From: an uncultured bacterium
GTDB taxonomy: Bacteria > Calescibacteriota > Calescibacteriia > Calescibacteriales > Calescibacteriaceae
Length of the DNA: 64,000 nt
Direction: 5' to 3'
Assembly: GCA_938036315.1 (NCBI GenBank)
Contig: CALHPK010000001.1
Location: forward strand, 62,001 to 126,000
Position 1 is the first letter of the stretch. The number at the start of each line of letters is the position of its first letter. The translations under genes were made by a program, and so were the position numbers. This document shows, piece after piece, positions 6,001 to 33,514 of this stretch. Below the pieces are notes generated by a model, which saw nothing but the letters and a program-made list of their open reading frames with translations, did no database searches and was not told where the DNA came from.

Positions 6001-9000
6001 AACACAGCACCTATTTTGAGCATAACACCCTCCAGCCCCACCAGTTGAATCACACCTCAGATCACAGCTAGTGCAAACCCCCAATATGCACGAACCATGG
6101 CAGTGCTGGGTTCTCGGACTGCAATTACACGTATCATCTGTACATGGACCTATTCTACAGTTGGCATCATAACTTGGTCTACATCCCGGCACTGCATAGC
6201 AAGTCCCAGTACAGTTGTTATTTGCATCGCAAGAAGCAGAACAATCTTGTCCAGCTGGGCAGCAGTCGGCATTGTCAACGCTATCATAATCCAGACACCA
6301 GCGTTGTGTTCCACAGTTTGTGCATCCGTTGGGACAGTACGTAGCATTGCACCTTACAGTCTGTTCAGAATGGCAGAACCAAGATATACCGTCACTTGTT
6401 GTACAAGAAGCATTTATACACCCATCTTCACATTCTGGGCAGGGGCCACCACAATCGTTGCAGCCAGCATCTTGATACTGTCCCCCGTGTGCTGGGTCAA
6501 GGTCCTTCCACAAAGCCGCTATAAAACCATTCGGAGAAGCTGAATTAGGTATCGGAGCTGAGGTCGGACTTGATCCTGGACAGGTCTGCGCGGTAGTCCT
6601 TGGGTAAAGTATTCCATTTGAGTCTATACATAGCCTTCGATTAGTTGTCTGGGTATAAAATGGAAAATCCCAGTTGATGTCAAACTGACGGACAAAATTA
6701 TCAAAATTTGTGGCATTGTTACACACATTCCCTTCTGTAGTGTTAACCTGCATATTGTAGTAGTTGGGTTCTCCTGACCAGCCTATTGCAACACAGGGAC
6801 GATTGTTTGCTGGACAGTTTGTCGGCGGATGTGTCTGCCTATCTCTTGGGACAAATAAAGGTGGTAGAGTTATCCTATAGTATAAAAATTCATTGTCATC
6901 CCCAGAAAGGTCTGCCCACATCGGTGCTACATAATTGTTAGGAGTCGCTGCAAAAGGAATGGGATCAGGGGTTGGATCAATACAACCGGCTCCAGTCGAT
7001 GGAAATATAGCATACCCATTTGTGGAAATGCACATATCGGAGTAGCCATTCCCGAAGAACCAGAACGTAAATCCTATACCTTGAGTAGAACTGCCCTCAT
7101 CACGGTTAGCCGGAGTTATATTAGTAAGCCCTGGAGCGACTGTATTATTAATCCAGCTAGATAATATGTTATTATTAGGGAATGGGTATGGTGCGTAGTT
7201 ATCTGTTCCAAAAGCTGGGCGAGGGAAGAATCCAGATGTATTGGTAAATGAAAGTGTAGCGGATCTTGGGAATGTTCCGGCGACACAGGAGTTGCTCAGA
7301 TCTTTCGGTCTTATCCCAACATCAAAGGAAACAGAGCAGCCGGTCCCAAGCAGGAGTAGCCTATGTGGATACGTATAGCATCCTATGTCGTAAGTACCAC
7401 CTGAGCAACCAAGAGTTCCATACCAGGGATTTTTTGGCTTTCCGATCAGAGCAACGGGACCCGGGTAACACTTTGTTGGGTCCTCGTGAGCGTGTCCCCG
7501 AGGAGGATCTTGTGCAGTAGTCTGTCTCCCGCAATACTGCGATATAGAAAAAGCTCTTCCAGTCACGAAAAATTCATTAAGATCTATAGGAAATAAAGCA
7601 TGCCTGCACCCTCCACCTCCACTTGCCCAGGGGTTATTGCATACTATACTAATTGTTCCATCATTGTTCCAGCACCAGCAACATCCCCAGTTCCCCCCAG
7701 AAGGAGTGGGATTCAAAGCACAGCTAGAAGGATTACACTGTGGAATATCTTGGCTACATCTTGACCCTGGGGTTACTGCAAATGAGAACTTTGAAGGTTT
7801 TTTGGGACACAAACTCAGATCACTATCTTTATAACTGGTGCCTGGGATTGGGCAATTACCATGCAAAAGCCCTTCAATAGCACTTGCGATCTGGGGAGTA
7901 ACCAAATTCTCTATCATATCTTCACCAACGCAATCTGCCAGACATCCCAATTGTGGGTGGTCTATATCTGAACCCAGTATATCAAGGTCAACATTGGAAA
8001 CACACACATCGACAATCGATCCCTGAATTATCGGTTGTAATCTTATCCTAAGCAAAAGTCCCTCCGTGTACATCCTCAGACCTCTGTTGTTGTGACAGTA
8101 GCCTAGAAAACATATGTACGCAGGGCCATCCAGACATGTTCTTGCTTCTGCACAGACTTCTGATGTCGGTCGGGGCCTACTACTGTCGATGGTGTTATGA
8201 GCTGGAATCAGTGGTTGAGGGAAAGCATCATATCCTGGGTTGGGGTCCTGCTCCGCCCATACAGCAATTATGGCAGTAAGATAACCAGCAATAGGGTCAG
8301 GAAAAACCTGAACTATTATCTTATTAAAGTAGAGAACATAATTGTCGTTAGGAGATGGACAGGTTGAACATACATCTCTGTAGCAGGAGTAACTCCCACC
8401 ATCTGTTCCGCCATTGTCAATGAACGCCAGGCACATTGTTGCTCCCATCTGTTGAGCGCAGGCTGCGTTACCGTAGAGCAGATTTTGAATCACCTGTATA
8501 AATGAAGGTTGCGATAATTGCTTTTCAATCTGCTCCGCAAGCCACTGGAAAAGACCATAAAATTCTCCCTGACCGGTGTTCAATCCTGGTCCAAAACCAC
8601 AGTTAGGCTGAGCATAACAACAGGAACCGGAGCATCCTCCTCCTGATGGTAACCCACGCAGGTCAGGTGAATTCCATTGTTGAGTAGCCCATGCTCCTGT
8701 TCCCTTCCAAAATGCTTCCCATGCAAACTCTGCCGCAAAATTTGATTCAGTAATAAGATTCCCATTTGTAAGTCCACAGCCAATACCCTCAACTGCTAAC
8801 TTCTGAGTTGATGGGACCTCCTTCTCAAAAATTTTCGGAGCCATAAGCCAGTCTCTATTCTTGAGCTCCTTATCTGAAAGCATAGCTAACACAGGAAGAA
8901 GAACTAACTGCTTTCTGAACTCTTCATAACAAGCTTTTTCATCAAGCCCAGGTCTTATCCCACATATGAAAGTTGAGGTTTGAGGTTCTGAAAATCTCCT

Positions 9001-9408
9001 CAGAAACTCCGAATTCCACCCAACTATCCTTAAGAATTCTTTGAGAATTTTTTCTATACAGTCTTCAAATGATGTGGAATCATATCCTGGGCAACCGTTA
9101 TCGTAATAATATTTTTTGAGTATGGAAAGGACTTCTGGAGAGATGTTCTGTATTACATCTTGAGCTGTCAGGTTCTCAAAGCCTTTCTGCTTCCCGAGTT
9201 CAAAAAGTTTTTTGTTCAGGTCTTCAATTTCCTGGCGTACTTTATTTTGTTGCTCTGCCGGTAAAATTAAGACCTCAGCAAAGTTGGCAAAAATTTTGCG
9301 AAAATTCAAGTATGGGGACAGAAATAAAAGAAAGACAATAGATGATAATAATAGGGATGTTGATAAAATTAATTTAGCTAACCTATTTTTCAGACGGAAA
9401 AATTTCAT
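3025..9408 (-). CDS. Giant cysteine-rich secreted surface protein with C-terminal membrane anchor (2127 aa)
   Basis: I do not recognise this protein as a whole. An N-terminal hydrophobic segment (about residues 11-32) acts as a signal or anchor and is followed by a short helical region. Two segments, about 740-840 and 910-1000, share a pattern with NIDO-like or anchor-domain proteins (FTFWFFGNGY, ISTNGY, APMWADL; then IDSNG, AALWKDL). Residues about 983-1160 hold 36 cysteines. Calcium-loop-like motifs DMNQDGVPD (about 1186) and DFNQNGVVD (about 1816) follow. The last 350 residues look like Ig/FnIII-type beta domains, and the C-terminus has GGC, a hydrophobic helix and RKRNGSK, like a tripartite sorting signal. 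The dense cysteines imply export to an oxidising place. Adhesion or envelope function is inference only. lpxK follows 23 bp downstream. Confidence 0.75.
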   Translation of the reverse strand: MKFFRLKNRLAKLILSTSLLLSSIVFLLFLSPYLNFRKIFANFAEVLILPAEQQNKVRQEIEDLNKKLFELGKQKGFENLTAQDVIQNISPEVLSILKKYYYDNGCPGYDSTSFEDCIEKILKEFLRIVGWNSEFLRRFSEPQTSTFICGIRPGLDEKACYEEFRKQLVLLPVLAMLSDKELKNRDWLMAPKIFEKEVPSTQKLAVEGIGCGLTNGNLITESNFAAEFAWEAFWKGTGAWATQQWNSPDLRGLPSGGGCSGSCCYAQPNCGFGPGLNTGQGEFYGLFQWLAEQIEKQLSQPSFIQVIQNLLYGNAACAQQMGATMCLAFIDNGGTDGGSYSCYRDVCSTCPSPNDNYVLYFNKIIVQVFPDPIAGYLTAIIAVWAEQDPNPGYDAFPQPLIPAHNTIDSSRPRPTSEVCAEARTCLDGPAYICFLGYCHNNRGLRMYTEGLLLRIRLQPIIQGSIVDVCVSNVDLDILGSDIDHPQLGCLADCVGEDMIENLVTPQIASAIEGLLHGNCPIPGTSYKDSDLSLCPKKPSKFSFAVTPGSRCSQDIPQCNPSSCALNPTPSGGNWGCCWCWNNDGTISIVCNNPWASGGGGCRHALFPIDLNEFFVTGRAFSISQYCGRQTTAQDPPRGHAHEDPTKCYPGPVALIGKPKNPWYGTLGCSGGTYDIGCYTYPHRLLLLGTGCSVSFDVGIRPKDLSNSCVAGTFPRSATLSFTNTSGFFPRPAFGTDNYAPYPFPNNNILSSWINNTVAPGLTNITPANRDEGSSTQGIGFTFWFFGNGYSDMCISTNGYAIFPSTGAGCIDPTPDPIPFAATPNNYVAPMWADLSGDDNEFLYYRITLPPLFVPRDRQTHPPTNCPANNRPCVAIGWSGEPNYYNMQVNTTEGNVCNNATNFDNFVRQFDINWDFPFYTQTTNRRLCIDSNGILYPRTTAQTCPGSSPTSAPIPNSASPNGFIAALWKDLDPAHGGQYQDAGCNDCGGPCPECEDGCINASCTTSDGISWFCHSEQTVRCNATYCPNGCTNCGTQRWCLDYDSVDNADCCPAGQDCSASCDANNNCTGTCYAVPGCRPSYDANCRIGPCTDDTCNCSPRTQHCHGSCILGVCTSCDLRCDSTGGAGGCYAQNRCCVWRNGGWECACGTSQTCQGGCEDDCNIFDPEPPQRQFRVLGKGYVLVGQLDMNQDGVPDLVDCPSQDIADGVFDDNGNGNYYDDDSAAANCNAIVITWYKITDYDHINDSNNNDSADCPGTAEDCCSDWVCSGGACSQCGGCRDDNRALCRLRQAGVLTPEPEYGAGRCANDNTFQIVLFSDGTIDINLQMWTNTNVSVGGFNARQHRVGIEDYNGQYGVEVPTPTPNVTYRFMRVGIAGSVCGPAAMQIGSRTDCPDTLNPGVSPNRSCRVIRWRNWHVKGNAICMDMYALLYNVGTGFNPGSNYDIVFYYDRFWAPIPGVPPAQQPQAARATSFPRTIGVENLGGTRGQYGFLPPDGTGVVMRYSGPFLYFLGVGISQDLLSDAAHMLYSSGLLCLASNPGGVLTTNADKFMDVSGFLPFNIRDVENLQYFFDSVRYLCDPDGQAEIRLIPGGSGAEPQYTQGATASARTGTGWPSLLTDPNASNAFPPGQFPVQPYPDMTFLLPSYAAEFWCRQNNISQFIKDGIVGATPRRLFAGYGDWFLALDAEYFVQESHPGWPSNPPSRVTQVLALFIDVKPQISDIVWNSAVPMSGRIGGISDILGDILSGYLQGMMRTRVSFPLSVTEFLHPLIRYIRPEGPDVTVEEFPQGTGWAAIRTRFPWVVTMPDYVAAYIGCVDFNQNGVVDPITECRDYSIMGTLTIDAILSLFGGGFLAPPMKSNGDNGLKISIQKPDFEVIIGDKRCNDECYIEGDEAKKLFGDINNRVFIRYSDLRKFSWRRNQGIWRIPQVLDGYSGTRELWVGAFADGENEISFFAFDNKGFGWPDIAKIKFKLDRVEPFVGIESGGEYDEKLKMRVFHSDKIQPLILKIYDNVDKPEDILIYWRVDGGEWNELGKGVRRLDLNLKRGVYKLELKGVDKSGNEGVWGEVIYVKGDEVVGGCPVIGSVTESDVKIVFSIINSLIPVSVVFGAFYIMKYVKINGNRKRNGSK

Positions 9409-10137: not shown

Positions 10138-13100
10138 ATGCAAAAAAATAACAAAAACAGAAAATCGGCAGTACTAATAAAAGTACTTGCAGCAGGAATT
10201 ATCACCGCAACATCCATCTTTATCTCCTCGGCAGGATGTAAATCAAAAATAGAATCAGAAAGAAAAAAAGAGTTGCTATTTGATATACAAAGGCAGTTTG
10301 TCCAACCTCAAGAATTTGTAACAACAAGAACAGGCGTACCAATCGCAAAAGGTGAGTTCCTCACTCTGGTCAAAGCAAACTCAAAAGAAGAAATAGAGAA
10401 AAAACTCGGCGAGCTTGAAAATTATGTACTGCAAGCAGGTGGGCAGATTGGTGGTGTTATTGATTTCGGTGGAAAAAACTTTGCAAAACTTGTTCAGATT
10501 ATCATCCCCTCCGCTGACTCTCCTGAAAAGATAGAAAACGAAATCCAAAAAGTTTTGGATCTCCAGCTTGTTAACTCTGCTTTCCCAAACACCACTATGA
10601 GTGGAAACATTCTCACAAAAGGAATAGTTCCCATCGATCCACTTTTTGACTCCTGGGATGATTCCCCAGACGGTAACAATTGGCACTTTGAATTTATGAA
10701 ATTTCCTCGGGCGTGGGAGATAAAGTCCAAAGGTGAGATAAAAGTCGGAGTCATTGAATTTGGGATTGAACCACATGAGGATTTACCTGCGGATGCGATA
10801 GAAGGTTTAACAAGTTACGGTGCAGATTGGGCGCGCAAACACGGTGTGAGCGTTGTAGGAACCTTAGGCGCCAAAGGCTTCAATGGTAAAGGAATAGCAG
10901 GAGCTGTCTGGAGATGGTCAGAGTCAGAAGATAAAAAAATTCTGCTAGAACTGACAAATGGGGGACTCGGTGACTTTGTCCAAAAGTTGCTCTCACTTAT
11001 CCAAAAGGGAGCAAAGGTTATCCTATTTGCAGGAGGTCTACAATGGGAAAGCCCTCCCTCAGATGAAGATCCTTCAGCTTCGGCAATTTTGAACTACCAC
11101 AGAGAACTATTCTCAATAGTTTTCCAGTATGTCAGATATTACGACGTTCTGTTTGTGCAGTCAGCAGGAAATGAGGGATGGGATGCAAAATGGGCTGGAG
11201 TTGGAGCAGTGGTGAAAGATTTGTTCCCAGGAAATATTCTGATAGTTGGTTCAATAAACAAAGATGGTTTTGTATCAAGTTTTTCAAATTGGGGAAGAGT
11301 TGTGGATGTATATGCTCCGGGGGAAGGGATCTTCACATTGTGTGAAGGTAATTTATACTGTTTAGTCTCTGGGACATCATATTCAGCAGCACTGGTTGGG
11401 GGGCTTGCAGTACTGATAAGGAGTTTGAGACCTGATTTGAGCGCTGGAAGAGTCAAAGAAGCTATAATGAAATCAAAGATGGAACAGCTGAGGATAGCAG
11501 AAAAAGGAATTATAGTTCCGGATGCATTCTTAAGTATGGAGATAGCAAGAGGAATGGAGGCAGGATGGGAGATAGAGGAGGTACCTGAGCCACAGCCATT
11601 TGTCCCTTCTGATATCGTAGGAGGAGGGAGATTGGGACCGAAGGCTATCCAATGCGCAGTGTTTGATAACACAGACCAAGACGGGGATAGAGCATTTAAT
11701 GCGCCAAAGTGCCCCCTAAACTCAGAAGCATGCTCATCCTGTGGACTCCTTTCTGGAAGGAATAATGCTAACGGGACCAACACAGGGAGAGAACTGAATC
11801 AGCCGAATGTTATATCTACCTGCACTGGAGCAGATTCAGGAGGAAACACTGATGGTCATATAGAGTCAATTCAGGTTGAGGCAATGGCTGAATCAGGATT
11901 TTTTGAAGCTGCAAGATCAATACAACAAGCAGTAAAAGTGACAATAAGAGCTTACTGCAGAGCTGCCAATGACTTTATCGACATACTCTATACAGAGAAT
12001 GCAGATCAAGTCAACCCGACTTGGACACACTTCGGTTCCGCAAGATGCAACCAGGACCCAGGTCAATTTTATGGAGAAAATTTTTACTGCACTACTACCA
12101 ATGGAGGCTGGAAGACCTGTACAGCAAGAATTTTACTTTCTCCGAATTTACCAGCTGGAAGGTCAGTAGCAGTAAGAGCAAGATATCAGAACTCAAACTC
12201 AGGCCAGACCGGAGCTTGTTACACCGGTTCAACTGTACGAGATCATGATGATTTAGTTTTCAAGATTCAGAGTTTACCTTCTTCTTTTCAGACGGCGGTA
12301 TATCATTCTGTATTCAGGGCTCCGATTTGTACTGATACTCAGAGAGGCTGGTGTGGAACAAATGGGATTGCAAGATGCAGAAACACCACTGTAATAAGCG
12401 GTGAGAATGTACCTGGCTTTATGAACTGCGGAGCTGGAACCGCTACCAACCCTTCAGAGCCAAACACCCCCAATACAATCTACAATAGCTGTTCAGATAC
12501 AAATCAAGATGATGGTAATTCAAAGGATGAGGAGGTGAGGCGTGTAAATGTAAAAAGCTTGGCAGCCTCAGGCAAATTTGAAGGTGGAGAATTAGTTGAG
12601 GTATCCGCACTGGTATTCTGCTTTCCTTCAGCTGACCAGATAATTTTCTTGTATGCATCAGGAGTTACAACTGATACAACAAATGTTAACTGGCGACACA
12701 TCAATACAGCTTTCTGCCCAGCAGGCGGTAACTTTAGAGAACCTTTCATTTTGAATACAACCTTGACCTTGGATAACGCTGAAGGTTGGCACGCAGTAAG
12801 AACTGTTGTTATTTGGGCTTCCGGTGCTCCTCCTCAAACATCTGCATGTCCCAATTACTCCTACCGTGATGCAGATGATTTGATTTTTTATGTCAAAGCG
12901 GTTCCGCCTTCTCAACTCCCAGTCTGCGCATCATATGATAACACAACTTCAGATGGTGATCCAGCATACAACACACCAAAGTGTCCAGCAGGAGCGTCTC
13001 AGTGCTCAACTTGCGATCTTGTAAAATCCCGTGATAATATATCAACTCCGGAACAAAATCAACCAAATACTTTATCAACCACCACGCCGTGTTCAGATCA

Positions 13101-16100
13101 AACAACAGCAGGAACTTATCTTCAAACAGAAAGCTTAGAGCGTATAGAGATCAAAAGCTATACTGGAACATTTCAGCCCGGTGCAACAGCGGAGATCAGA
13201 GTCCTTGTCAACTGCACCCCAGCATATCCAACCTACTTTGATGACAGATTAAGAATCCTTTACGCACAAGATGCTAATAACCCTTCATGGCAAGTAATTG
13301 AAGATAATCTATCAGTATGCTCCGGTCCGGGGTATCAGCTTTTCACAAAAATTATCACCTTGGGTAATACCGCAGGCAATCATGTTATACGAGCTATGTT
13401 CCAGCGCGGGGATTTTTCTCCTGGTCAGGTCTGTGCTACAGGAACAGCAGGAGATACAGATGATCTTGTTTTTACAGTCGGCATACCTCAGGCACCACAG
13501 AATTTCAAAGCAGAAGGAGTCTCACCAGATAGCATAACCCTATCTTGGATAGATGTTCAGGGAGAAACTTACTATGAACTTCGCTGGACCAACACTTATA
13601 ACCCCAACTACTCCAGCTGGTACATACATTCAGCTTCGCCTCTGCCAGCTGATAGCTGGTATTATGTTGATAGACCCTTGCCAGAGGGAACATACCGCTG
13701 TTACGCCCTGAGAGCCTGTAACGCAAACGGATGCTCTTCTTATGTCTGGGACTGCGCAACCGTTCCTTCATTGAGTGCAAATTGCGCAACCTATGATTCA
13801 TCATGGAAAGTCCCTGTCTGCCCCGGAGGTGTTAACAACTGTTCAACTTGTGACCTTGTCTTGTCAAGAGATAGCATTTCACCAAGAGCTGAGCAAAATA
13901 CTCCAAATACATGGCTTAACTCCTGTGCCGATCAAGGTGGAGGAACGTATTTCGGAACAGGAAACTCCATAGAAAAGATAATTTTGACAACTACTGCAGG
14001 TTCATTTCAACCTGTGTATCCGATAAATATAACAGCACGGGTGTACTGTGCCACAGCTGGAACTCCAATCATGGCATACTACTCCGCTGGGACAAGTCCT
14101 GTTTCATTCACATTGATCTCATCCACAACATGTGCTGCGTCCGGGGCAGTTGAGGACAAAAACTTCTCATTCACACCCGGAACATCTAATTGGTACGTGA
14201 TAAGGGTGACAATGGGAGGAACAACAGTAGGGACTTGCTCAACAGGTAATCAGTTTGAAGCAGATGATGTCGCAGTGAGAATTGGAGGAGTTCCCCCGGT
14301 TCCCCAAGGCTTTGATGTCTTCTTTGTAAATCCAGATATAGCTCGAGTTGTATGGCAAGATGTTGACGGAGAAACTTACTACAGGCTTGTATCAGCTCCA
14401 ACTCCTTTAGATACGTTCACTGAAGTTACGCCTCCTTTACCTGCAGACACAACTTCATATAATCACTCAGGACTTGCAGAAGGACAAAGTATATGTTTCA
14501 AACTTCAAGCTTGTAATGGTATAGGATGCTCCGCATTCACATCTGTAAAGTGCACTACGAGATCTCCCACTCCTCCATCTAATCTTAGTATACAAGCGTA
14601 CTCAGATGAAGTTTCGACTCAGGCTACATTCACCGTTATATTCAATGATAACTCAACCAACGAAGATGGCTTTGTTATAGATAGAACTACAAATGGAACA
14701 AGCTGGACAAGATTAGAATGGTGGTCGAGCTCAGCGACAAAAACTGGAACAGGTCAAAGACAAGTCCAGCTCTCTTTGAACATGGAGATAAATACTTGCT
14801 TTAGAGTTGCAAGCTTCAAACAAGTTCCCGGCTCAGGAACTCTTTCTCTCTCATCCTGGGCAGATAACTCTACTCAGTGTGTCGTAGCAGTCAGAGCACC
14901 ATCGTCTTTACAGGTATACTCAACATTGATCCCAAAAACACTTGATCTATTCTGGGTTGACCGATCCAATTTTGAAGCAGGGTATTACATCGACTATAGA
15001 TTATCTTCGTCTCAAAACTGGAGTTCAGTATCTATTTCAAGTAATTCATCTTACTATAGATTAAGTTTCAATTCTGAGGATGTTTACTATTTGCGTGTGA
15101 CTAACTACTATGTTTCTGGAACCCCACTTGGTAGGAACTTCTCACGAGGTTACTCATCTGAGGTCCTCAAACTTGCGATGGCAAAACCTTCACCCCTTTA
15201 CACAGAAGCTTCAGGAAATAACTCTATTTACCTTGAATGGCAAGACAATGCGATCTCTGAAACAGCATACCAAATTCAGGTGAGCGATGGTACATCCTGG
15301 AGCAATCTTGCCAATACATCCCCAGATACCATAACATATGTTCACTCAGGAGTTTCAGGAAGGCTGTGTTACCGCGTCAGAGGTGTAAAGGGTTCTTATT
15401 ACACAGACTGGACTGAGGTAAGTTGCAGTTCCCCTGGTGTGGTTGGAGCTTGCTCCTCATCTGTTAATGCTGGAGTAGGCAGTAGTGAGCTGAGGGTCGC
15501 GGTAAAATCAGGAGAGCTTGCTATTGGCTATACATCCACCACATTGTATGGGATAAGAAGTTATAGCGGAACTGTTGCATGGTCTTTGCCAATAGATAAT
15601 ATTTCAGCAGTGTGCAATATCTCACCATCAACAATATTTGTTGGAAATACAGCAGGTACAGGTACAGCCTATGTAATCGATACAAACACTGGTACAGTGC
15701 TAAAATCAACCGGTGGTTTCGGGAGCTTCAGAGGGTGTGCAGTATCTTCAGATGGCTTCATATTTGCGACAGTGTCAGGAGGAACAGTTTACAAACTAAA
15801 TCCATCTTTAGTTGTTGTCGGCTCTGCAAATGCTGGAGGAACTATAGGGACAGCACCAGCTATTGATAAGAAAAGGTCATATGTGTTTGTAGTAAGACAA
15901 GATGGAGCTGTTAGAATATACAACTTGAACCTTTCTCTTGTAGGGAGCACATCTCCAATTGCAGGAGTCACATCAACATCGTCTCCAGCAATAGGACCTC
16001 AGGGCGAGATTTACTTTGGAGCATCAGATGGACGTCTCTACAAAGTTCTGAACTCATCTGGAGTATGGACTACTACCTCTGTATCTATAGGAAGTGGATT

Positions 16101-17760
16101 AGTTTCATCACCTGTGGTGTATGCAAACGGAACATCAACTATTGTTCTTGCTGGTGCTGGGACATCAGGGCAATTTTCTGCTGTGAACGGAAGAACCATG
16201 GGGATACTGTGGAGCCAGACCTTAGCTTCGGGAATTCAGTACTCAGCTGGGTTGGGGGAAGACACAGTATTTCTTGCCAGCGGGAATACAGTTTATGGCA
16301 GGAGAATTGCAGATGGTCAGCTTGTATGTAGTTACACTGTACCTGGATCTGGGAACATTTCCTCAAATATTATCATAAGTGGGCAGGATGTGATATTTTC
16401 AGATACAAGTGGAAGATTTTATGTTCTGAATGCTGGTGTCGGTGAAGCTGCGTTCTCATGGATAGACTTTGGAGGTGGAAATGGTAGAAGAGAAGGTGGC
16501 CAGCATGGGATGAAAACATATCTTACTCACGAAAGGAGCTACTGTCCTGTTTCTGGTGGGAGGATTTATGGAACAACAGTCGCAGATGTGGATGGTGATG
16601 GAACCTTAGACATAGTCGGAGTATGGGTAGATGGAGGCAGAATATATGCTATAAGAGGTGATACAGGACAAATACTATGGTCTGCACAGGTTAATGAGAC
16701 AATCCTCTGGAGTATCCCTGCAGTCGGAGACACAAATGCTGATGGGGTCCCAGATGTCGTTATAGGTACAGAATCAAATAATATATATATATTCAATGGA
16801 GGAACTGGGGCCCAGATCTCCTCCGCTAGTGGTTTGTGTGGTAAAATAAGAGCAATATCTCTTGCAAACTTAGATAACGATTCTTCACTGGAGATCATAG
16901 CAGTTGCAACTAACTGCAACAGTGTGTATGTTCTTGATTGGAATGGATTTAATTATGATATTGAGCGATTTAATTTGGGGAGTGGGAACAACAATTCATT
17001 TGCAGTAGCGGTTAACTCTGGCTCTACAAGATATATTTTTGTAACAGATTTTTCAGGGAGATTGCACAGGATAGATTATACGACAAAGACAACTTCTACG
17101 GTAACTGTATCTGGAGGTGCAAAACTGTTCTCTCCTACTGTTGCGGATATTGATGGTGACGGGCAGTTGGAGGTAGTGTTTGCTTCAAATGGCATAACAG
17201 TGTACGCATATACAATAGATATGACCCAAAAGTGGGCAGTAAACCTTGGTATTAACGATTCTATTGAAAGATGCCCAAGGGGTGCTGCACTTTCCCCAAG
17301 AGCCGGAGGAGGCTACGACTTGATCTTCACAATACCTTCATGTCAAACAACAAGCTCGTACTCATACTTGGCAAAGGTGACAGGGAGTGGAAATTCAGGA
17401 TACGTCAATTTTGTGAAAACCATTAATTCAAATGCATTGTCTGTTCCTGGGATAGTTGATATAGATGGAGATGGTAAAGATGAATATGTGGTACTAACAG
17501 ATGGAGGATACTTGTACGGATACAGGTCAGACGGAAGTATAATGTTTGCAGCACCGTACTACATCACAAATACATCCTTAGGAGCACGTGGTGCTGTGAA
17601 TTTGGCTGATGTAGATGGAGATGGGAATTTAGAGTTGGTATTTGGTAATTATTGGGGGAGCTGTATTGTGGTGTTTGAGGCAGGGGGCAGTCCCGGTGCT
17701 ACTGATAGAGTAAGATGGAGTCACTTCAGAGGGAATAAAGAGCAAAACGCTCTTAGATAG
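10138..17760 (+). CDS. Giant subtilase-like lipoprotein with Cys-rich modules, FnIII, propeller and FG-GAP repeats (2540 aa)
   Basis: The N-terminus has a basic stretch, a hydrophobic core and SSAGC with C34 as a plausible lipidation site. Residues about 60-150 resemble a subtilase propeptide. Residues about 195-450 form an S8 fold: VIEFG with E207 where the family has the catalytic Asp, HG (H235), AGNEG (N345) and GTSYSAA (S414). Four Cys-rich modules of 160-210 residues follow (about 506-711, 731-922, 930-1115, 1216-1381), with FnIII-like domains after the third (about 1118-1205) and from 1385 to about 1760. A PQQ/WD-type beta-propeller spans about 1770-2105, and FG-GAP/VCBS calcium loops (DVDGDG, DIDGDG and similar) fill 2142-2540. 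AGGAG precedes the ATG. It is probably anchored to the envelope and displayed outside; protease activity is doubtful because of E207. bioB begins 52 bp downstream. Confidence 0.8.
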   Translation: MQKNNKNRKSAVLIKVLAAGIITATSIFISSAGCKSKIESERKKELLFDIQRQFVQPQEFVTTRTGVPIAKGEFLTLVKANSKEEIEKKLGELENYVLQAGGQIGGVIDFGGKNFAKLVQIIIPSADSPEKIENEIQKVLDLQLVNSAFPNTTMSGNILTKGIVPIDPLFDSWDDSPDGNNWHFEFMKFPRAWEIKSKGEIKVGVIEFGIEPHEDLPADAIEGLTSYGADWARKHGVSVVGTLGAKGFNGKGIAGAVWRWSESEDKKILLELTNGGLGDFVQKLLSLIQKGAKVILFAGGLQWESPPSDEDPSASAILNYHRELFSIVFQYVRYYDVLFVQSAGNEGWDAKWAGVGAVVKDLFPGNILIVGSINKDGFVSSFSNWGRVVDVYAPGEGIFTLCEGNLYCLVSGTSYSAALVGGLAVLIRSLRPDLSAGRVKEAIMKSKMEQLRIAEKGIIVPDAFLSMEIARGMEAGWEIEEVPEPQPFVPSDIVGGGRLGPKAIQCAVFDNTDQDGDRAFNAPKCPLNSEACSSCGLLSGRNNANGTNTGRELNQPNVISTCTGADSGGNTDGHIESIQVEAMAESGFFEAARSIQQAVKVTIRAYCRAANDFIDILYTENADQVNPTWTHFGSARCNQDPGQFYGENFYCTTTNGGWKTCTARILLSPNLPAGRSVAVRARYQNSNSGQTGACYTGSTVRDHDDLVFKIQSLPSSFQTAVYHSVFRAPICTDTQRGWCGTNGIARCRNTTVISGENVPGFMNCGAGTATNPSEPNTPNTIYNSCSDTNQDDGNSKDEEVRRVNVKSLAASGKFEGGELVEVSALVFCFPSADQIIFLYASGVTTDTTNVNWRHINTAFCPAGGNFREPFILNTTLTLDNAEGWHAVRTVVIWASGAPPQTSACPNYSYRDADDLIFYVKAVPPSQLPVCASYDNTTSDGDPAYNTPKCPAGASQCSTCDLVKSRDNISTPEQNQPNTLSTTTPCSDQTTAGTYLQTESLERIEIKSYTGTFQPGATAEIRVLVNCTPAYPTYFDDRLRILYAQDANNPSWQVIEDNLSVCSGPGYQLFTKIITLGNTAGNHVIRAMFQRGDFSPGQVCATGTAGDTDDLVFTVGIPQAPQNFKAEGVSPDSITLSWIDVQGETYYELRWTNTYNPNYSSWYIHSASPLPADSWYYVDRPLPEGTYRCYALRACNANGCSSYVWDCATVPSLSANCATYDSSWKVPVCPGGVNNCSTCDLVLSRDSISPRAEQNTPNTWLNSCADQGGGTYFGTGNSIEKIILTTTAGSFQPVYPINITARVYCATAGTPIMAYYSAGTSPVSFTLISSTTCAASGAVEDKNFSFTPGTSNWYVIRVTMGGTTVGTCSTGNQFEADDVAVRIGGVPPVPQGFDVFFVNPDIARVVWQDVDGETYYRLVSAPTPLDTFTEVTPPLPADTTSYNHSGLAEGQSICFKLQACNGIGCSAFTSVKCTTRSPTPPSNLSIQAYSDEVSTQATFTVIFNDNSTNEDGFVIDRTTNGTSWTRLEWWSSSATKTGTGQRQVQLSLNMEINTCFRVASFKQVPGSGTLSLSSWADNSTQCVVAVRAPSSLQVYSTLIPKTLDLFWVDRSNFEAGYYIDYRLSSSQNWSSVSISSNSSYYRLSFNSEDVYYLRVTNYYVSGTPLGRNFSRGYSSEVLKLAMAKPSPLYTEASGNNSIYLEWQDNAISETAYQIQVSDGTSWSNLANTSPDTITYVHSGVSGRLCYRVRGVKGSYYTDWTEVSCSSPGVVGACSSSVNAGVGSSELRVAVKSGELAIGYTSTTLYGIRSYSGTVAWSLPIDNISAVCNISPSTIFVGNTAGTGTAYVIDTNTGTVLKSTGGFGSFRGCAVSSDGFIFATVSGGTVYKLNPSLVVVGSANAGGTIGTAPAIDKKRSYVFVVRQDGAVRIYNLNLSLVGSTSPIAGVTSTSSPAIGPQGEIYFGASDGRLYKVLNSSGVWTTTSVSIGSGLVSSPVVYANGTSTIVLAGAGTSGQFSAVNGRTMGILWSQTLASGIQYSAGLGEDTVFLASGNTVYGRRIADGQLVCSYTVPGSGNISSNIIISGQDVIFSDTSGRFYVLNAGVGEAAFSWIDFGGGNGRREGGQHGMKTYLTHERSYCPVSGGRIYGTTVADVDGDGTLDIVGVWVDGGRIYAIRGDTGQILWSAQVNETILWSIPAVGDTNADGVPDVVIGTESNNIYIFNGGTGAQISSASGLCGKIRAISLANLDNDSSLEIIAVATNCNSVYVLDWNGFNYDIERFNLGSGNNNSFAVAVNSGSTRYIFVTDFSGRLHRIDYTTKTTSTVTVSGGAKLFSPTVADIDGDGQLEVVFASNGITVYAYTIDMTQKWAVNLGINDSIERCPRGAALSPRAGGGYDLIFTIPSCQTTSSYSYLAKVTGSGNSGYVNFVKTINSNALSVPGIVDIDGDGKDEYVVLTDGGYLYGYRSDGSIMFAAPYYITNTSLGARGAVNLADVDGDGNLELVFGNYWGSCIVVFEAGGSPGATDRVRWSHFRGNKEQNALR

Positions 17761-26022: not shown

Positions 26023-26781
26023 TTACCTTATCTTAAATTTTCCTCTTCTGTAATCTGACATTTTTTCCCCGTCGTAATACCATACACGCCAAAAATAAAC
26101 ACCTGAAATTGGCTTTATACTCACCCGACTTGGTAAGAATCTATTCTCGGACACCTCGGCAAATAAGACAGGATTCTGGAAATTTTCATCTAAAGCTATC
26201 TCAACAAAATACTTTTTAGCAGATTCAACCGAAAGCCAGGAAAAATAAAATGTTGAAAATTCATCGCTATCCCGTGGAAACACAACTGAAGGAGCAGATG
26301 GCAATGTATAAATCCCTTTCTCATTTACTCCGGTCAGCTTTGTCAGAGTTTTTCCTTTATAGCTTCCTCCCCCTTCAAGTATTTCCACACCAGCTGATGT
26401 AAATCGCACAACAGCTTGGGTCGTCGTAGTAGAGAAAAAACCAAATTCAACTATACAGTTTACAGAAGTGAATTCTACAATACCCAAAACACCGCCCACC
26501 TTCACCCAGAAAGGATTGTTATATCCTCTTTTAGCCTCAATTATGCTAATACTTGAGCCTGGGTAAACTTTAAGTCTGCATACTTGATCAGGTTCTGCAA
26601 ATATAGATATAAAGGTGAAATCCTTTGATGAGATAGAAAGCGGTAATCTTTTCACATTCCATTCTTCCACCCCATCATACACTTGTAAATCAAAGGGCAA
26701 CTTAGGTGCAATAAAGCACCCCATCATAGATAATAGAAAAATGATAAAACTGGCCAAAAACTTCCATTTCAAAATCTTCAT
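26023..26781 (-). CDS. FecR-like lipoprotein with C-terminal beta domain
   Basis: The ATG at 26781 gives a lipoprotein-like signal, MKILKWK, a hydrophobic core and SMMGC with Cys at position 22. A TTG at 26805 is possible but would overlap the preceding gene by 17 bp. The middle carries a FecR-like pattern (SRRG-type beta strands, AGVEILEGGGSYKGKTLTKLTG). A C-terminal segment (FYFSWLSVESAKKYFVEIALDENF, then GVYFWRVWYYDG) is the fibronectin-like domain that often follows FecR in envelope proteins of delta-proteobacteria and spirochaetes. Function is unknown. It directly follows the HYDIN/OmpA gene, so the pair probably forms a transcription unit and may act together at the envelope. Confidence 0.7.
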   Translation of the reverse strand: MKILKWKFLASFIIFLLSMMGCFIAPKLPFDLQVYDGVEEWNVKRLPLSISSKDFTFISIFAEPDQVCRLKVYPGSSISIIEAKRGYNNPFWVKVGGVLGIVEFTSVNCIVEFGFFSTTTTQAVVRFTSAGVEILEGGGSYKGKTLTKLTGVNEKGIYTLPSAPSVVFPRDSDEFSTFYFSWLSVESAKKYFVEIALDENFQNPVLFAEVSENRFLPSRVSIKPISGVYFWRVWYYDGEKMSDYRRGKFKIR

Positions 26782-26788
26782 CAAACAA

Positions 26789-29700
26789 TCATTTTTCACG
26801 AGCAAAAACCTTTATTTCTATTCTTCTACTTTCTGACCAATCTTTCTCTAACCTTGCCTTAGCGGAACCATAACCTATAATCCTTATGGGAATCCTCACT
26901 CCCTTCTTCAGGAGATATTTTCTCACCTCAAGCGCTCTCATATATGAAAGAATTATGTTGAAATCCTCGTCTCCGGTAGGATCTGCATGTCCTTCTATCT
27001 CTATGCTTGCTATTTTATCTGAATTAGAAATTATAATCTCGGCTGCTCTATCTAAAAGAGTAAATGCACCGCGAGGTATCTCCCATCTGCCGACTTCAAA
27101 TTGTGAAGCCGCTGCTTCAATCAGAGGCAATATTCTCTTTTCTATCTCAGTTTCCCTTTTTACTTCCCTTTCTCTAAGCTCCACTAATGACTTCTCTCTT
27201 TCCTTAATTACCTGCTCCAGCAACTTTACTACATAATCATCACCTTCCTCCTCCTTTTCTTTTTCCTTCTTTGTTTTCACCGCCTCTTTCCCTTCTTTCT
27301 TTCCGGCTTCATCTCTGCTTTTTTTCCGATCTTCTGTGGTGCTCTCACTCTTTTTATCTTCACCGTGTGGTTTGCCCCCTTCTCCAGTTATTTCTTTAGC
27401 AATCGCTTCTATCTCCTCAAACGGAACCTTCAGGTTAACCCATACAATTTCATCTGGTTGGAAAGAAATTTCCTTCTCTCTACCATCGACCTGAATTATA
27501 TGAATTCCAGGAACACTGACTACCACTCTCTCCGAAATCAACATTCGGGCTTCATTTGGGGACTTCACTAATATTTTTTTCGATGTTGGAATTCCAGAGC
27601 GATCAAAAAGTGAAATATACGCCTTTGAGGAGCCTCTTTCGAGAGTTATTTCAAGTTTCCTGGTACTGGCAGTAATTGCGAACTTCTCTTCCTTAACAAG
27701 GTAGCCGGGTGAGACCGCTCTGAAGGTCCACTCCCCCTCCGGTAGATTAACTTCGAATTTTCCAGCACTCACCCTTGAGTAAATGCCAATCTCCGGTATG
27801 TATATATACCCTGAATCTACTGGATTACTATCAGAATCAATAACTGAGCCAGAAATTCTTATACGCTTTTCCAGATCAGGACCAATATTATAAGTCAGGA
27901 TACTAAATACACGAAATTTTGGGGTTCCTATCCCTTCGGTTAACCCGAATCCAGCACCACTTCGAATATATAACAGTGGTAGTATCTTATACCCAATTGA
28001 TACTACCGATTCAACAGGAGTGTTTTCTTTTCTTATATTCTCAAAGGGTATTGAAGATAAAGCTTCAAAAGATAGAGAAAAGTCTGAAAAACTGTAAGAA
28101 ACTCCTCCTGAGATTAACCCAGAAGATGACATAGATACATCTCCGATTTGTGTTGGTGAAATATACATCATTCCCAATCCACCCGAGATCATAAGTTCGC
28201 CTCCCATCAGCAAGCTTTTGTACGTTGAGAGGATTGAAACACGAGGAGATACAACGCCATAGCTTGAGAACTCACCGCCAACAGGAATATTTACCACAGG
28301 ATTTATTGCCAGAAAGAACTTTTTCTCAAGGTCTAAAATTTTCCATCGAGCTTCCACTATAGGATCTGCAAACTCAAATTCCTTTTGATTTGCTATTTTC
28401 ATAAGTTGGAAATACAAATTCAACTCAAGATCTTGTAATGTAACATATCCAAGTGATATTCCTCCTGATATAACATACGGTATCATGACTCTGGAATCCA
28501 CTGTTTTAGTACCTTTTAGAACTTTGAGCTTCAAGGGGGTATCAGAGAAATTGAAGAATAAAACCGAGCTGAAAAATCTCTTAGGTCTGAGCTCTGCAGT
28601 TCTTATCACTGAAAAATATCTTACATCCTGAGATAATTTGAAAGCTTGAATATCTACCCCACCAATATCTGCACTAGCTAAATAAGGGGATAGTATTTTC
28701 TTCAGAACCACAGCGACTACAATGATACGAAATAAGTTAGACCTCAATTTTATAACAATGAAGGTAATAACAAACTGAAGTAGAAAACTAAGCATTGCTT
28801 CTGGCGATGACGCTGAGCAAGAGCATCCTCCACCAACTGGAAGAACCTTGAACCTATTCACAGTTCCACTAAGCTTAACTTGAATCTCAGGCTGCCTTGG
28901 ATCATCTGTTATAAACTTTACCACATCTTCAAATCTGCCAAATTTACCCTGGGGAGAAAGGACAAAGCGCAATGAATAAGATGCTCCCGCAGGAATAACA
29001 ATATAGGTTGCCTCAACCGAAAACACCGGCACAGATGGAGGAGTTACCAGAATCTCCACAGGTGCAGAACCAATGTTACTTATAGGGAGAATATATTCAG
29101 TAACTTCATCAATATATATCTGCCCAAAGTCTATTTCGGTTCTCTCAATATAAAGTACTGGAGATCCTCCTATACCACTCAACCCAACTTTTACGATACC
29201 TCTTGTGAGATCACTTGAATAGATAGTAATTTCACCTCGATACTCTTCAAGCCTTGTTGGTAGAAAATATATAGGGACCGCAATCTCTGATTTCTCCTGA
29301 AGCTCAAATTCTTTCTTCTCAATATCCAGTGAGAAAGCTTCTCCAACAATTTCTATCCCTTTGATCTGAAGTGGTAAATTACCTGTGTTTTTCATAATGA
29401 GGGACTTTACAACTTTCTTACCTACGCGCACCCTTCCAAAATCAATTTCGTCATCAACATAAATATGTGAATTAGCTCCTTCTCCTCTTATCTGAACAAC
29501 CACCATAGGAGTGTCCACAGAATTTGATATTATTACCATTGAAGATGTAATCACATCTTCTCTTTGGGGATAGAACTCTACGGATACCGTAATCTGATCA
29601 AAGTAGTTGACAATGGCGGGCAGAGATGGTAGGCGAACATACAGATCTTCATAACTACTTAGTGAAATGGAAGCTACATAAAGCGGATCTACACCAATAT

Positions 29701-32700
29701 TCCTTATGCTGATCCTTTCTTCCACTTTCTCACCAAGTCTTACTTTTCCAAAATCTACTGCTTGAGGTTCAACCTGAATTTTCGGATAAGGAGCTAAAGT
29801 CTCTTTACTTATCCCTCTACCTCTTAACACCACAGTAACAGGATTCCTATACCATACGTTTGAGTATATGTATAAGATTTTTTCAAACGTTCCAAGAGCA
29901 TTCGGAGTAAAGTATATATCAATTTTAGATGAAGATTGAGGAGAGACCAAAAACGGAGTAGTAGCTCCCGGGTTGAAAGGTTTTTCTACTTGGATGTACG
30001 TTACAAGCAGAGTATAATCTCCAGTATTGGAAATTCCTAACGGCATAGATTTGAACCCTCCAACGACTACATCACCAAAGTCAAGTTCAGAAGGCACAAC
30101 TACTATACCCGGTACCTCCTCACCTTCCCCAGGTACCCTACCTCTACCAATCAATTGAACAGTAATAGGATTTTTATATATAACATTAGAATAAAGCTGG
30201 AGAATGTCTGAGAATATCCCCACAGTTGTAGGTGCAAAATAAACCTTTACACCAGTCGAAGACTGAGGGAGAACTACAAAAGGTAATACCGATTCATACA
30301 AAAATGGCGGATTTACTTTAATTTGTGTTACAACAAGGTTGTAAGTTCCTGGGTTTGATATAGTAACCGTCACCGATCTAAATCCGCCTATGGGTACTTC
30401 TCCGAAATTGATATTAGATGGATCCACAGATATGTCGGCAGAAACTCCCCTTACATAAGCATTGACATATATTGGGAAGATTATTCCTTCAGTTGGATTT
30501 GATGCGACAAATGAAAGTGTACGCAAGAACTCCCCATTTTCCGGAGGCTCAGTGTAAACAGGATACCCAATCCAAGTTCCTGGCTCTAAGAACTGAGTCA
30601 TAGGTGAGATCAGGAACGGTTGGAAATTTCCTCCGTTAGCTGGATATATATTCAATGAAAGGAAATTCGATCTATTTACAAGTGTTACCTCTCTGGTAGC
30701 CCTTTCTCCTACTACAACGTCCTCAAAATTTAAAAATGGCGGGATCACTCCCACTACACTATTTCGGTCTATAACTTCGCCAACCAATAAAATTGAGAAA
30801 ATCTCTGAAATGGAATTGGAATAAATATTTAGCAGAGATAGAAAGAGTCCCTCCTGAGATGAACCGAACGCAACCGTTATGTCGGCAGTATTTCCTGGAG
30901 CAACAGTAAAGTTTGTAGGTGAAGGAGATGAAAATGCTCCACTTTCCCCCGAAGCTTGATTATATACTTTGACATCTTTTATAATAAGGTTCACACGTCC
31001 GGCGTTTTTGATCTTGACAATACATTGCTTTGTGTGATTTTTCAGAACAACCCCGCAATTTACAGATGTTTCCGCCTCTATCACAGGAGCTATACCTTTC
31101 CCTACAAGCTTTACAGTAAAGAGACCTTCATCATGGTCATCGCTCAAAACACGTATATAATTTACAAATGTGCGCTCCCCCTGAGTTATTCGCCATGGAG
31201 AAAATCTAACCCACAGAGGAAATGAACCACCCAAAGGAATAAGAAACGCTGGGATCTCTCCCCCATCCCCAGGTTGAGGTGCTGTAACCCGAAATGGAGA
31301 ATCAGTGCCAGCAGGAGTTAGAATCATTGTAACTCTAATTGGATAATCACCAATACACAACTGCCCGGGCAAATCTATATTCTGATCTTTCATATTATTC
31401 AGGTAAATTACTACCGAGGTTGTTTCCCAAACCGCAACCTCACCAAAATCAACCGTACAAGTAAGAGAATTCCCATAACCCTGACAACCTGCTGGTGTTA
31501 CTGGTGCGGGAGAAGTAATTCCGATATCCGGATAAAGTGATACCCCCGTTATTGGAACAGAAAAAATACCAGTTGTTTGAGATATTGGCTCGTGCCAACT
31601 AAAACTCACACTTGTAGTAAAAACTCCTTCAGAAAGTGTCTGAAAAGAAACACTCATTTTGAAATCCTTATTCCCGGCATCCCATACCTCCCACTTATCA
31701 TCATTGCATGAAAGATTATCATTTCCTTCATAATCAGGTGAACGCAGTACCTGGAAGAAAAAGCCAGGAGGTTGAAATGAAGTACATGAACCAAAATAAT
31801 TAATAAATAAAGGTGAAGTAATTTTTACAGATACAGGAGTTCCTTTGTTCGTGATAGTAAGTTCCTCAACTTTTGCTTCTTTAGGTTTTGCGCAAAGAAC
31901 AATAGGAGTTGGATTTACTTCCACCCCCGTAGCCGGAAACGGCCAAACCTTAATTTCAAACTTCTTACATGCTGTTTTTGATACTGGAGATGAAAAATCA
32001 TGAATAAAAGGAGATGAAAAATCATGAATAAAAGCGGAAAATGTATAAGGGCATGGATATTCTCCGTTACATGGAGAAAGTGCATTATCAGAAATTACCC
32101 CTGTTACTTTTCCTGATATTTCAAGGGTTAGTCCTTCGGGCATAGTTCCCCACACAGGGTACCACCTATACGTTCCGCTCCCCCCTGTAGCTCCAAGCTG
32201 GAATCCACCAGACGAAGGGAAAGGATAACCTGCTCCTGACACCGCATAAGGAAGCTCGTACTGTGTAGTTATACTAATATTATTAAAAGCATCAAAAGTT
32301 ACTGCAGATAAGTAATTTGAATACTTCACAAGTACAACACCGGTCGAGATATCAGCATATGTAGTTCCAGCCACATAAAGGTATTGAACTCCCCAAAGTT
32401 CTGCAGATTTACCAACTTCATCAGTTGCACATCGCTCATAGTATGAAGGATACCATGAAGTTGGCTGAACATACCTAGGTGTGATCTCAATGGGTACAGG
32501 AACTTCTTCCCTCAGTACCATTACTTTTGCTTTGTCTATTCCATTTTCATTTATTCCATAGAGCAAAGCTATATCTTCAGTTAATTTGCTCACATAAAAA
32601 ATCATATTGGGGTTATAAAATGTCACAAATTTAGGGAAGTGAGTCTGTCCAGTTGAAGCATTTACCTCTTGATAACATATCTGAGTTGAACCAGGCTCTT

Positions 32701-33514
32701 GAACCCCCAAACAGTAAAGTGGATTAATATAAAAAATAAGAAATTTATTACCTTTGTAAAAAACAGCATTCGGTTTGAGCTCTTGATAATCTGGGACAAA
32801 AGATGCTGCCGTGTTTCCCCCTACCGGTGTTCCCGAAGAACTTATAACTTGAAAATATATATCCCAGTTTGACGCTCGGTAATCTTCCCAGGCGACAAGA
32901 TAGACTCCGTTACCGTATGCAGCTGATGGATTACGCTTAGGTGCTGGATCAACAGCTATTGCTACAGGAGTAAGAGGTTGAGCAGATAAATCAAAAATAA
33001 CTCCGCTTATTCCCCCGTTATACTCAAAAGCTAAAAAGACCTGTCCCAAATCTTCGTTAAACGCTAAAGTAGGATTCACCCCTGTAACACCTGCATATGA
33101 GTGTTCAACTGCAGCATTGTCACTTCTGAGGATTGAAAGAGTTATATATTCTCCGTACTGATATGCAACAGCATAACTACACCCTGATGCATAACAACCA
33201 AATGAAATAGCTGGGTCTGTACCTGAAGCGGTAAAATTTGCGTAGTCAACGTTTCCGTCTGACAGACTTAAAAACTTTGAGCTCAATTGATTATCTTTTT
33301 CATACACTATAAGCCATCTTTTATTCACCCAATCAAAAGCTGAAACTGCTTTCCCTATATTCCCAGAATCTATTTTTATAAATCCTTGATTTACAAGTCC
33401 ACCACCTAAAAAGAATCCAAGTGCGGTGGCTAATAATAAAAGTAGAACAATAAACAAAAATTTTCTTGACTTAAAAATATCCCTCATAGCCACAGAACAG
33501 AAAATATATTTCAT
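26789..33514 (-). CDS. Giant HYDIN/ASH-repeat protein fused to an OmpA-family outer-membrane protein (2241 aa)
   Basis: Residues 14-34 form an N-terminal membrane segment or signal. Residues about 40-400 look like a beta-propeller (LAWEDYRASNWDIYFQVI is typical). A putative-Ig domain spans about 420-515. From about 650 to 1560 there are roughly eight ASPM/SPD-2/Hydin-type beta domains, recognised by INFGEVPIG, LDFGDVVVG, VDFGKVRLG, IDFGRVRVG and similar, spaced about 110-120 residues apart. GGGCSCS followed by a hydrophobic helix and basic residues lies near 1560-1590. A second signal-like hydrophobic stretch ending SPYLASA follows, then a beta-rich barrel-like part, a carboxypeptidase-regulatory-like domain (about 1883-1965), a Lys/Glu-rich linker and an OmpA domain (GHADPTG, RALEVRKYL, SRRIEI). 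The OmpA end should bind peptidoglycan. The role is unknown. Confidence 0.8.
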   Translation of the reverse strand: MKYIFCSVAMRDIFKSRKFLFIVLLLLLATALGFFLGGGLVNQGFIKIDSGNIGKAVSAFDWVNKRWLIVYEKDNQLSSKFLSLSDGNVDYANFTASGTDPAISFGCYASGCSYAVAYQYGEYITLSILRSDNAAVEHSYAGVTGVNPTLAFNEDLGQVFLAFEYNGGISGVIFDLSAQPLTPVAIAVDPAPKRNPSAAYGNGVYLVAWEDYRASNWDIYFQVISSSGTPVGGNTAASFVPDYQELKPNAVFYKGNKFLIFYINPLYCLGVQEPGSTQICYQEVNASTGQTHFPKFVTFYNPNMIFYVSKLTEDIALLYGINENGIDKAKVMVLREEVPVPIEITPRYVQPTSWYPSYYERCATDEVGKSAELWGVQYLYVAGTTYADISTGVVLVKYSNYLSAVTFDAFNNISITTQYELPYAVSGAGYPFPSSGGFQLGATGGSGTYRWYPVWGTMPEGLTLEISGKVTGVISDNALSPCNGEYPCPYTFSAFIHDFSSPFIHDFSSPVSKTACKKFEIKVWPFPATGVEVNPTPIVLCAKPKEAKVEELTITNKGTPVSVKITSPLFINYFGSCTSFQPPGFFFQVLRSPDYEGNDNLSCNDDKWEVWDAGNKDFKMSVSFQTLSEGVFTTSVSFSWHEPISQTTGIFSVPITGVSLYPDIGITSPAPVTPAGCQGYGNSLTCTVDFGEVAVWETTSVVIYLNNMKDQNIDLPGQLCIGDYPIRVTMILTPAGTDSPFRVTAPQPGDGGEIPAFLIPLGGSFPLWVRFSPWRITQGERTFVNYIRVLSDDHDEGLFTVKLVGKGIAPVIEAETSVNCGVVLKNHTKQCIVKIKNAGRVNLIIKDVKVYNQASGESGAFSSPSPTNFTVAPGNTADITVAFGSSQEGLFLSLLNIYSNSISEIFSILLVGEVIDRNSVVGVIPPFLNFEDVVVGERATREVTLVNRSNFLSLNIYPANGGNFQPFLISPMTQFLEPGTWIGYPVYTEPPENGEFLRTLSFVASNPTEGIIFPIYVNAYVRGVSADISVDPSNINFGEVPIGGFRSVTVTISNPGTYNLVVTQIKVNPPFLYESVLPFVVLPQSSTGVKVYFAPTTVGIFSDILQLYSNVIYKNPITVQLIGRGRVPGEGEEVPGIVVVPSELDFGDVVVGGFKSMPLGISNTGDYTLLVTYIQVEKPFNPGATTPFLVSPQSSSKIDIYFTPNALGTFEKILYIYSNVWYRNPVTVVLRGRGISKETLAPYPKIQVEPQAVDFGKVRLGEKVEERISIRNIGVDPLYVASISLSSYEDLYVRLPSLPAIVNYFDQITVSVEFYPQREDVITSSMVIISNSVDTPMVVVQIRGEGANSHIYVDDEIDFGRVRVGKKVVKSLIMKNTGNLPLQIKGIEIVGEAFSLDIEKKEFELQEKSEIAVPIYFLPTRLEEYRGEITIYSSDLTRGIVKVGLSGIGGSPVLYIERTEIDFGQIYIDEVTEYILPISNIGSAPVEILVTPPSVPVFSVEATYIVIPAGASYSLRFVLSPQGKFGRFEDVVKFITDDPRQPEIQVKLSGTVNRFKVLPVGGGCSCSASSPEAMLSFLLQFVITFIVIKLRSNLFRIIVVAVVLKKILSPYLASADIGGVDIQAFKLSQDVRYFSVIRTAELRPKRFFSSVLFFNFSDTPLKLKVLKGTKTVDSRVMIPYVISGGISLGYVTLQDLELNLYFQLMKIANQKEFEFADPIVEARWKILDLEKKFFLAINPVVNIPVGGEFSSYGVVSPRVSILSTYKSLLMGGELMISGGLGMMYISPTQIGDVSMSSSGLISGGVSYSFSDFSLSFEALSSIPFENIRKENTPVESVVSIGYKILPLLYIRSGAGFGLTEGIGTPKFRVFSILTYNIGPDLEKRIRISGSVIDSDSNPVDSGYIYIPEIGIYSRVSAGKFEVNLPEGEWTFRAVSPGYLVKEEKFAITASTRKLEITLERGSSKAYISLFDRSGIPTSKKILVKSPNEARMLISERVVVSVPGIHIIQVDGREKEISFQPDEIVWVNLKVPFEEIEAIAKEITGEGGKPHGEDKKSESTTEDRKKSRDEAGKKEGKEAVKTKKEKEKEEEGDDYVVKLLEQVIKEREKSLVELREREVKRETEIEKRILPLIEAAASQFEVGRWEIPRGAFTLLDRAAEIIISNSDKIASIEIEGHADPTGDEDFNIILSYMRALEVRKYLLKKGVRIPIRIIGYGSAKARLEKDWSESRRIEIKVFAREK
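31986..32033 (-). repeat. 24-bp perfect tandem duplication inside the HYDIN/OmpA gene
   Basis: Two identical 24-bp units lie head to tail and add eight codons in frame, giving FIHDFSSP twice in the putative-Ig domain. Identical copies suggest a recent duplication. Confidence 0.95.

Follow-up and report, generated by a model that had tools for sequence, protein, structure and literature searches.

The minus strand of the window, the 64,000-nucleotide stretch of DNA that was analysed, carries at 26789–33514 a single uninterrupted frame of 2241 codons, as read from the open reading frame list and its translation. The encoded protein, here called the type A precursor, begins with a signal peptide (residues ~1–40, 33395–33514; hydrophobic segment 13–36), after which an unassigned N-terminal region leads into HYDIN/ASH-type Ig repeats of the choice-of-anchor D kind (residues ~815–1550, 28865–31072). 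Six such stretches up to residue 1550 were recognised by Pfam (PF22544, E 2.4e-57; PF15780, E 1.6e-53), the repeats also match NCBIfam model NF012200 (E 4.8e-59), and the last one resembles the PapD-like domains of human HYDIN by fold. A near-perfect 24-base tandem duplication within the gene (31985–32032, minus strand), which places FIHDFSSP twice at residues 495–510, could be either a natural repeat or an assembly slip.

The repeats are followed by the motif GGGCSCS (residues 1561–1567, 28814–28834), a sorting-signal-like transmembrane segment detected by both hydropathy and AlphaFold2 (helix 1, residues 1574–1588, 28751–28795), a basic loop, KLRSN, that is predicted to be cytoplasmic (residues 1589–1593, 28736–28750), and a second hydrophobic stretch with the signal-peptidase-I-like end SPYLASA (helix 2, residues 1594–1615, 28670–28735). 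Directly after this end (residue 1615, position 28670) comes DIGGVDIQAF, and with it a predicted 12-stranded outer-membrane beta-barrel (residues 1616–1883, 27866–28669). Further downstream lie regulatory-like beta domains (residues 1884–2030, 27425–27865; all-beta in the model, with a sub-threshold Pfam match to PF13620 at E 0.002), a charged Lys/Glu-rich linker whose length differs among relatives (27140–27424), and an OmpA peptidoglycan-binding domain (residues 2139–2220, 26855–27100; PF00691, E 6.3e-10). By hydropathy, strong hydrophobic helices occur only at the N-terminus and at the two sites in the junction. This layout had been described in the original prediction, and Pfam, hydropathy, AlphaFold2 and nine homologues all confirmed it.

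Structure prediction of the junction and barrel region likewise agreed with the expected order. The AlphaFold2 model of the junction shows an Ig domain (pLDDT >90), two helices and then beta strands, and the barrel modelled alone from 31 sequences has 12 strands (pLDDT 93.3, pTM 0.88). In Foldseek, the top solved structure was the COG4313 channel 4rl8 (TM-score 0.66), followed by FapF (TM-score ~0.6). These proteins have the outer-membrane barrel fold in common with the precursor, but at ~12% identity and on chains without an adhesin half. A scan of named genomes with the precursor gave matches limited to the OmpA domain.

Conservation of the junction within the family

Nine genes of this kind, falling into two paralogue types, occur across all five genomes of the family (G000–G004), and each is fused and forms one open frame. 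The window's own genome, G000, holds a second gene of the same layout on contig 3 (B_G000, 1226 aa); type A proteins of 2238–2673 aa are found in G001–G003, and type B proteins of 1313–1356 aa in G001–G004. Type B alone was seen in G004, a genome that is ~85% complete. In the alignment, Gly-x-Gly-Cys is invariant (9/9) and is followed by the helix, a basic loop without acidic residues and the second helix. A small residue (A, S or T) stands shortly ahead of the barrel. The end of helix 2 is signal-peptidase-I-like in nearly all copies, the site in B_G000 being a weak one (GYT, then F). Clearly, the order of the junction is not a matter of chance, since it recurs in all nine homologues with G-x-G-C unchanged. 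The reading of the junction as a sorting-signal-like motif joined to a signal-peptide-like segment was upheld: in the family the precursor is always one protein, and its Gly-Cys helix motif is conserved.

These relatives also bear on how the long frame arose. The assembly is a draft of 32 contigs, and a sequencing or assembly error could have fused two genes, but the same join recurs in nine genes from the five family genomes and also in other phyla, and no stop or start is restored in any family relative; such an error is scarcely conceivable and was rejected. Under another explanation, translation restarts inside the junction and yields two proteins, so that the long frame has no significance of its own. 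An in-frame TTG does lie just ahead of helix 2 in the window and in some relatives. The internal start codons are not conserved, however: in B_G004 the stretch from tag to barrel is free of ATG, GTG and TTG, and A_G001 has a single such codon there, located inside helix 2. Moreover, no ribosome-binding site was seen at a shared place, and junction dN/dS values of 0.12 (type A pair) and 0.34 (type B pair) indicate purifying selection on the frame through the loop. Restart was accordingly rejected as very improbable.

The junction in other lineages

The phylum of G032, to which G000 does not belong by its kinship labels, appears to be myxobacteria-like, with genomes of up to 13 Mb and TraB in members. 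Matches to the barrel-OmpA profile occur in 192 of its 195 genomes. Of the best 30 loci, 29 encode in one frame a G-R/H-GC tag, then a helix and Arg, then a signal peptide whose end reads AxAQ or similar, and finally the barrel. L113, also of this phylum, stands as a gene of its own, and its upstream region has no tag. The myxobacteria-like orthologues carry a near-threshold MYXO-CTERM match (19.3 of 20 bits), then classic AxAQ-ending signal peptides in frame, and those inspected mostly have DxDGDG-type repeats in their N-terminal halves.

Beyond both phyla, six more families show the same in-frame order: G182, G265, G131/G267, G037, G233 and G484. Their tags vary, with GIGC in G182, GFGC in G131/G267, GLC in G037, GNGC in G233 and GDC in G484. 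In G265 (L083), a CFI-box C-terminal domain (NF041770, 101 bits) stands in for the Gly-Cys tag, and after it come an internal signal peptide and then the same barrel. An open frame of 8019 aa in G484 (L170) includes the GDC tag, signal peptide and barrel.

That two kinds of gene appear to have been joined, as originally proposed, is supported by genomes in which they stand apart. In G272 (L081), a gene ending in GGCGCS, a helix and RRR is separated by 34 bases from a gene for a signal peptide, barrel and OmpA domain. Many standalone barrel-OmpA genes also occur. The TraA and TraB genes of myxobacteria are direct neighbours, and in the four loci inspected the tag at the end of TraA adjoins the start of TraB. 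The proposed check for separate adjacent halves in relatives found such a pair in G272 and none within the family. On a 40-row tree of the barrels, whose fused or separate states were labelled automatically and inspected by eye (L036 and L083 fused; L085 and L164 separate), the fused state needs 8 changes, at least two of them forced by starred branches. Fusion or fission must therefore have occurred more than once overall, with gain and loss not separable on this tree. The seven rows of the family group together in a single supported clade, all of them fused, and the fusion is therefore older than the duplication into types A and B.

Sorting-signal-like tag, protease and known relatives

MrtX, an enzyme that has also been expressed in E. 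coli, has been reported to cleave MYXO-CTERM tags (Guo, Haft and Wall, PMC11980579). The window tag resembles those tags in its cysteine after glycine at the start of the signal, its transmembrane helix and its basic cluster, the last being, in the family, short and often Lys-rich instead of Arg-rich. However, it is internal, with >620 residues after it, and the TIGR03901 (MYXO-CTERM) model, with a cut-off of 20 bits, gave no match to the window precursor and 6.8 bits for A_G003. Membership of the tag in MYXO-CTERM was rejected on these two counts. Each of G000–G003 encodes exactly one CPBP-family protein, which is of the myxosortase type (Mrt_core, E 8.8e-25 to 5.4e-28), and G004 has one myxosortase match as well. 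Scores in the five genomes range from 87.9 to 98.6 bits, below the NF040914 Mrt_core cut-off of 100. The glutamic protease motifs EExxxR and HxxxN are represented by EELFFR and HTVAN, together with FMLIH, at 1192–1821 of L038, with a match to PF02517 (E 1.9e-18). A full-length GspD secretin of type II secretion (T2SS) is present in all five genomes.

Similar tags also occur at true C-termini. A HYDIN protein of G003 (X_G003) ends in CSCSS, a transmembrane helix and RGKK, and sampled stretches of G000 totalling 0.46 Mb yielded three large proteins with tails of GGC or GMC, a transmembrane helix and basic residues, one of them in the window. Given the myxosortase-type protease, the secretin genes and the similar C-terminal tags on other proteins, the internal tag likely serves in sorting. 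The window also encodes a 2127-aa protein almost without family matches (3025–9408, minus strand), whose C-terminus reads GGC, helix, NRKR; from its sequence, it is possibly a substrate that the same enzyme would recognise at a true C-terminus.

Beyond the window's family, myxosortase matches were found in G032, G409, G426, G131 and G484, with a weak one only in G267. None was found in G182, G265, G037 or G233, all of which have fused junctions, so the protease is not needed for the architecture everywhere; in those lineages, either another protease or no cleavage of the tag must be assumed. Such genomes would fit a single cut at the signal peptidase I site, by which the C-terminal half would reach the outer membrane and the N-terminal half would keep helix 1, staying in the inner membrane or being freed by some other protease. 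This would also fit the signal-peptide-like end of helix 2 and a tag that the MYXO-CTERM model does not recognise. A single cut is nevertheless unlikely: the invariance of GxGC goes unexplained if nothing acts on the tag, and both the myxosortase-type protease in 5/5 family genomes and the similar C-terminal tags on other proteins speak against it.

The closest published counterpart is MXAN_5598 of Myxococcus xanthus, described in excerpts of PMC11980579 as having an internal MYXO-CTERM between adhesin and barrel-OmpA halves, a rare configuration that was called atypical. Its authors likened it to TraA plus TraB and proposed processing of the N-terminal half at the internal tag (mBio 2025, PMC11980579); in those excerpts, a second signal peptide, other phyla and frequency beyond "rare" are not discussed. 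MXAN_5598 was also detected in vesicles (PMC4158809). Compared by published description, both proteins combine a large adhesin-like N-terminal half, an internal tag, an outer-membrane beta-barrel and OmpA in one ORF, and the precursor thus has the MXAN_5598-type architecture, with its N-terminal surface domain. The window family differs in its phylum, its HYDIN/ASH repeats, a tag below the MYXO-CTERM model and its two paralogues, and the window gene does not lie beside ftsA/ftsZ. Outside the phylum of MXAN_5598, the family represents a variant of the same kind of protein.

The TraA/TraB pair offers a second parallel, namely a tagged surface protein with a barrel-OmpA partner. The barrels are homologous, the precursor barrel profile aligning with that of TraB (hhalign probability 91, E 9e-7), but TraB model NF033763 gave 22 bits, over the OmpA domain only, against a 700-bit cut-off, and no TraB match was found in G000. 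TraA and TraB are, moreover, two edge-to-edge genes, and TraA has PA14 and Cys-rich repeats rather than HYDIN, features that a Pfam scan did not find in the precursor.

Proposed processing of the precursor

Taken together, these features suggest that the precursor is probably cut twice, yielding a surface protein held by a lipid anchor and, as its partner, an outer-membrane barrel that grips the cell wall. The N-terminal signal peptide would direct the HYDIN-repeat half through Sec, with helix 1 serving as a stop-transfer segment and the basic loop remaining in the cytoplasm. Helix 2 would then act as an internal signal peptide for export of the second half, and cleavage by signal peptidase I after ASA would free a barrel-OmpA protein able to insert into the outer membrane and bind peptidoglycan. 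The myxosortase-family protease may cut the first half beside the GxGC cysteine, which is probably lipidated, and type II secretion could carry this half to the surface. The outcome would resemble TraA and TraB made as one chain, and one gene with two cuts would thus supply equal amounts of the surface protein and its wall-gripping partner. A literature search for bacterial polyproteins with internal signal peptides returned mostly viral or off-topic matches. One precedent is the Bradyrhizobium fbcH precursor, from which cytochromes b and c1 are released by cleavage following export.

The original prediction had instead suggested a tether between surface and peptidoglycan. Read as a lasting covalent link, this would mean that the protein stays whole, with an inner-membrane helical hairpin or a membrane-embedded link joining the surface repeats to barrel and cell wall. 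One open frame in every family copy and two helices of membrane length would suit an intact chain. However, the helix pair and its basic loop would lie in the inner membrane, and one mature chain cannot combine this with a 12-strand barrel in the outer membrane; the conserved signal-peptidase-like end of helix 2, and other lineages in which each half is a protein of its own with a separate signal, also weigh against an intact chain. A tether is decidedly improbable, and a chain cut into two products is more plausible.

On balance, a slightly favoured generalisation is that bacteria of several phyla produce a surface receptor together with its partner, an outer-membrane protein that binds the cell wall, as a single polyprotein in which an internal sorting tag and then an internal signal peptide mark the join; that the arrangement was gained or lost several times; and that, outside myxobacteria, its tags and proteases are missed by current models. 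A layout known from a single case called atypical and rare is standard in another phylum and common in a myxobacteria-like one. This makes two ideas directly testable, namely that bacterial polyproteins are processed twice and that surface receptors are paired with wall-gripping barrels. The family would also add a lineage to those with myxosortase-type sorting, and its tag escapes current models.

Two other genes of the window deserve mention. On the plus strand, 10138–17760 encodes a 2540-aa protein with subtilase, beta-propeller and FG-GAP matches and a lipoprotein-signal-like N-terminus. On the minus strand, a lipoprotein-like gene without a Pfam match (26023–26805) overlaps the 3′ end of the precursor gene. 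No homologue of it was found by tblastn in L027 and L032; one adjoins or follows seven of the nine family copies, and the gene is probably a partner of the precursor.
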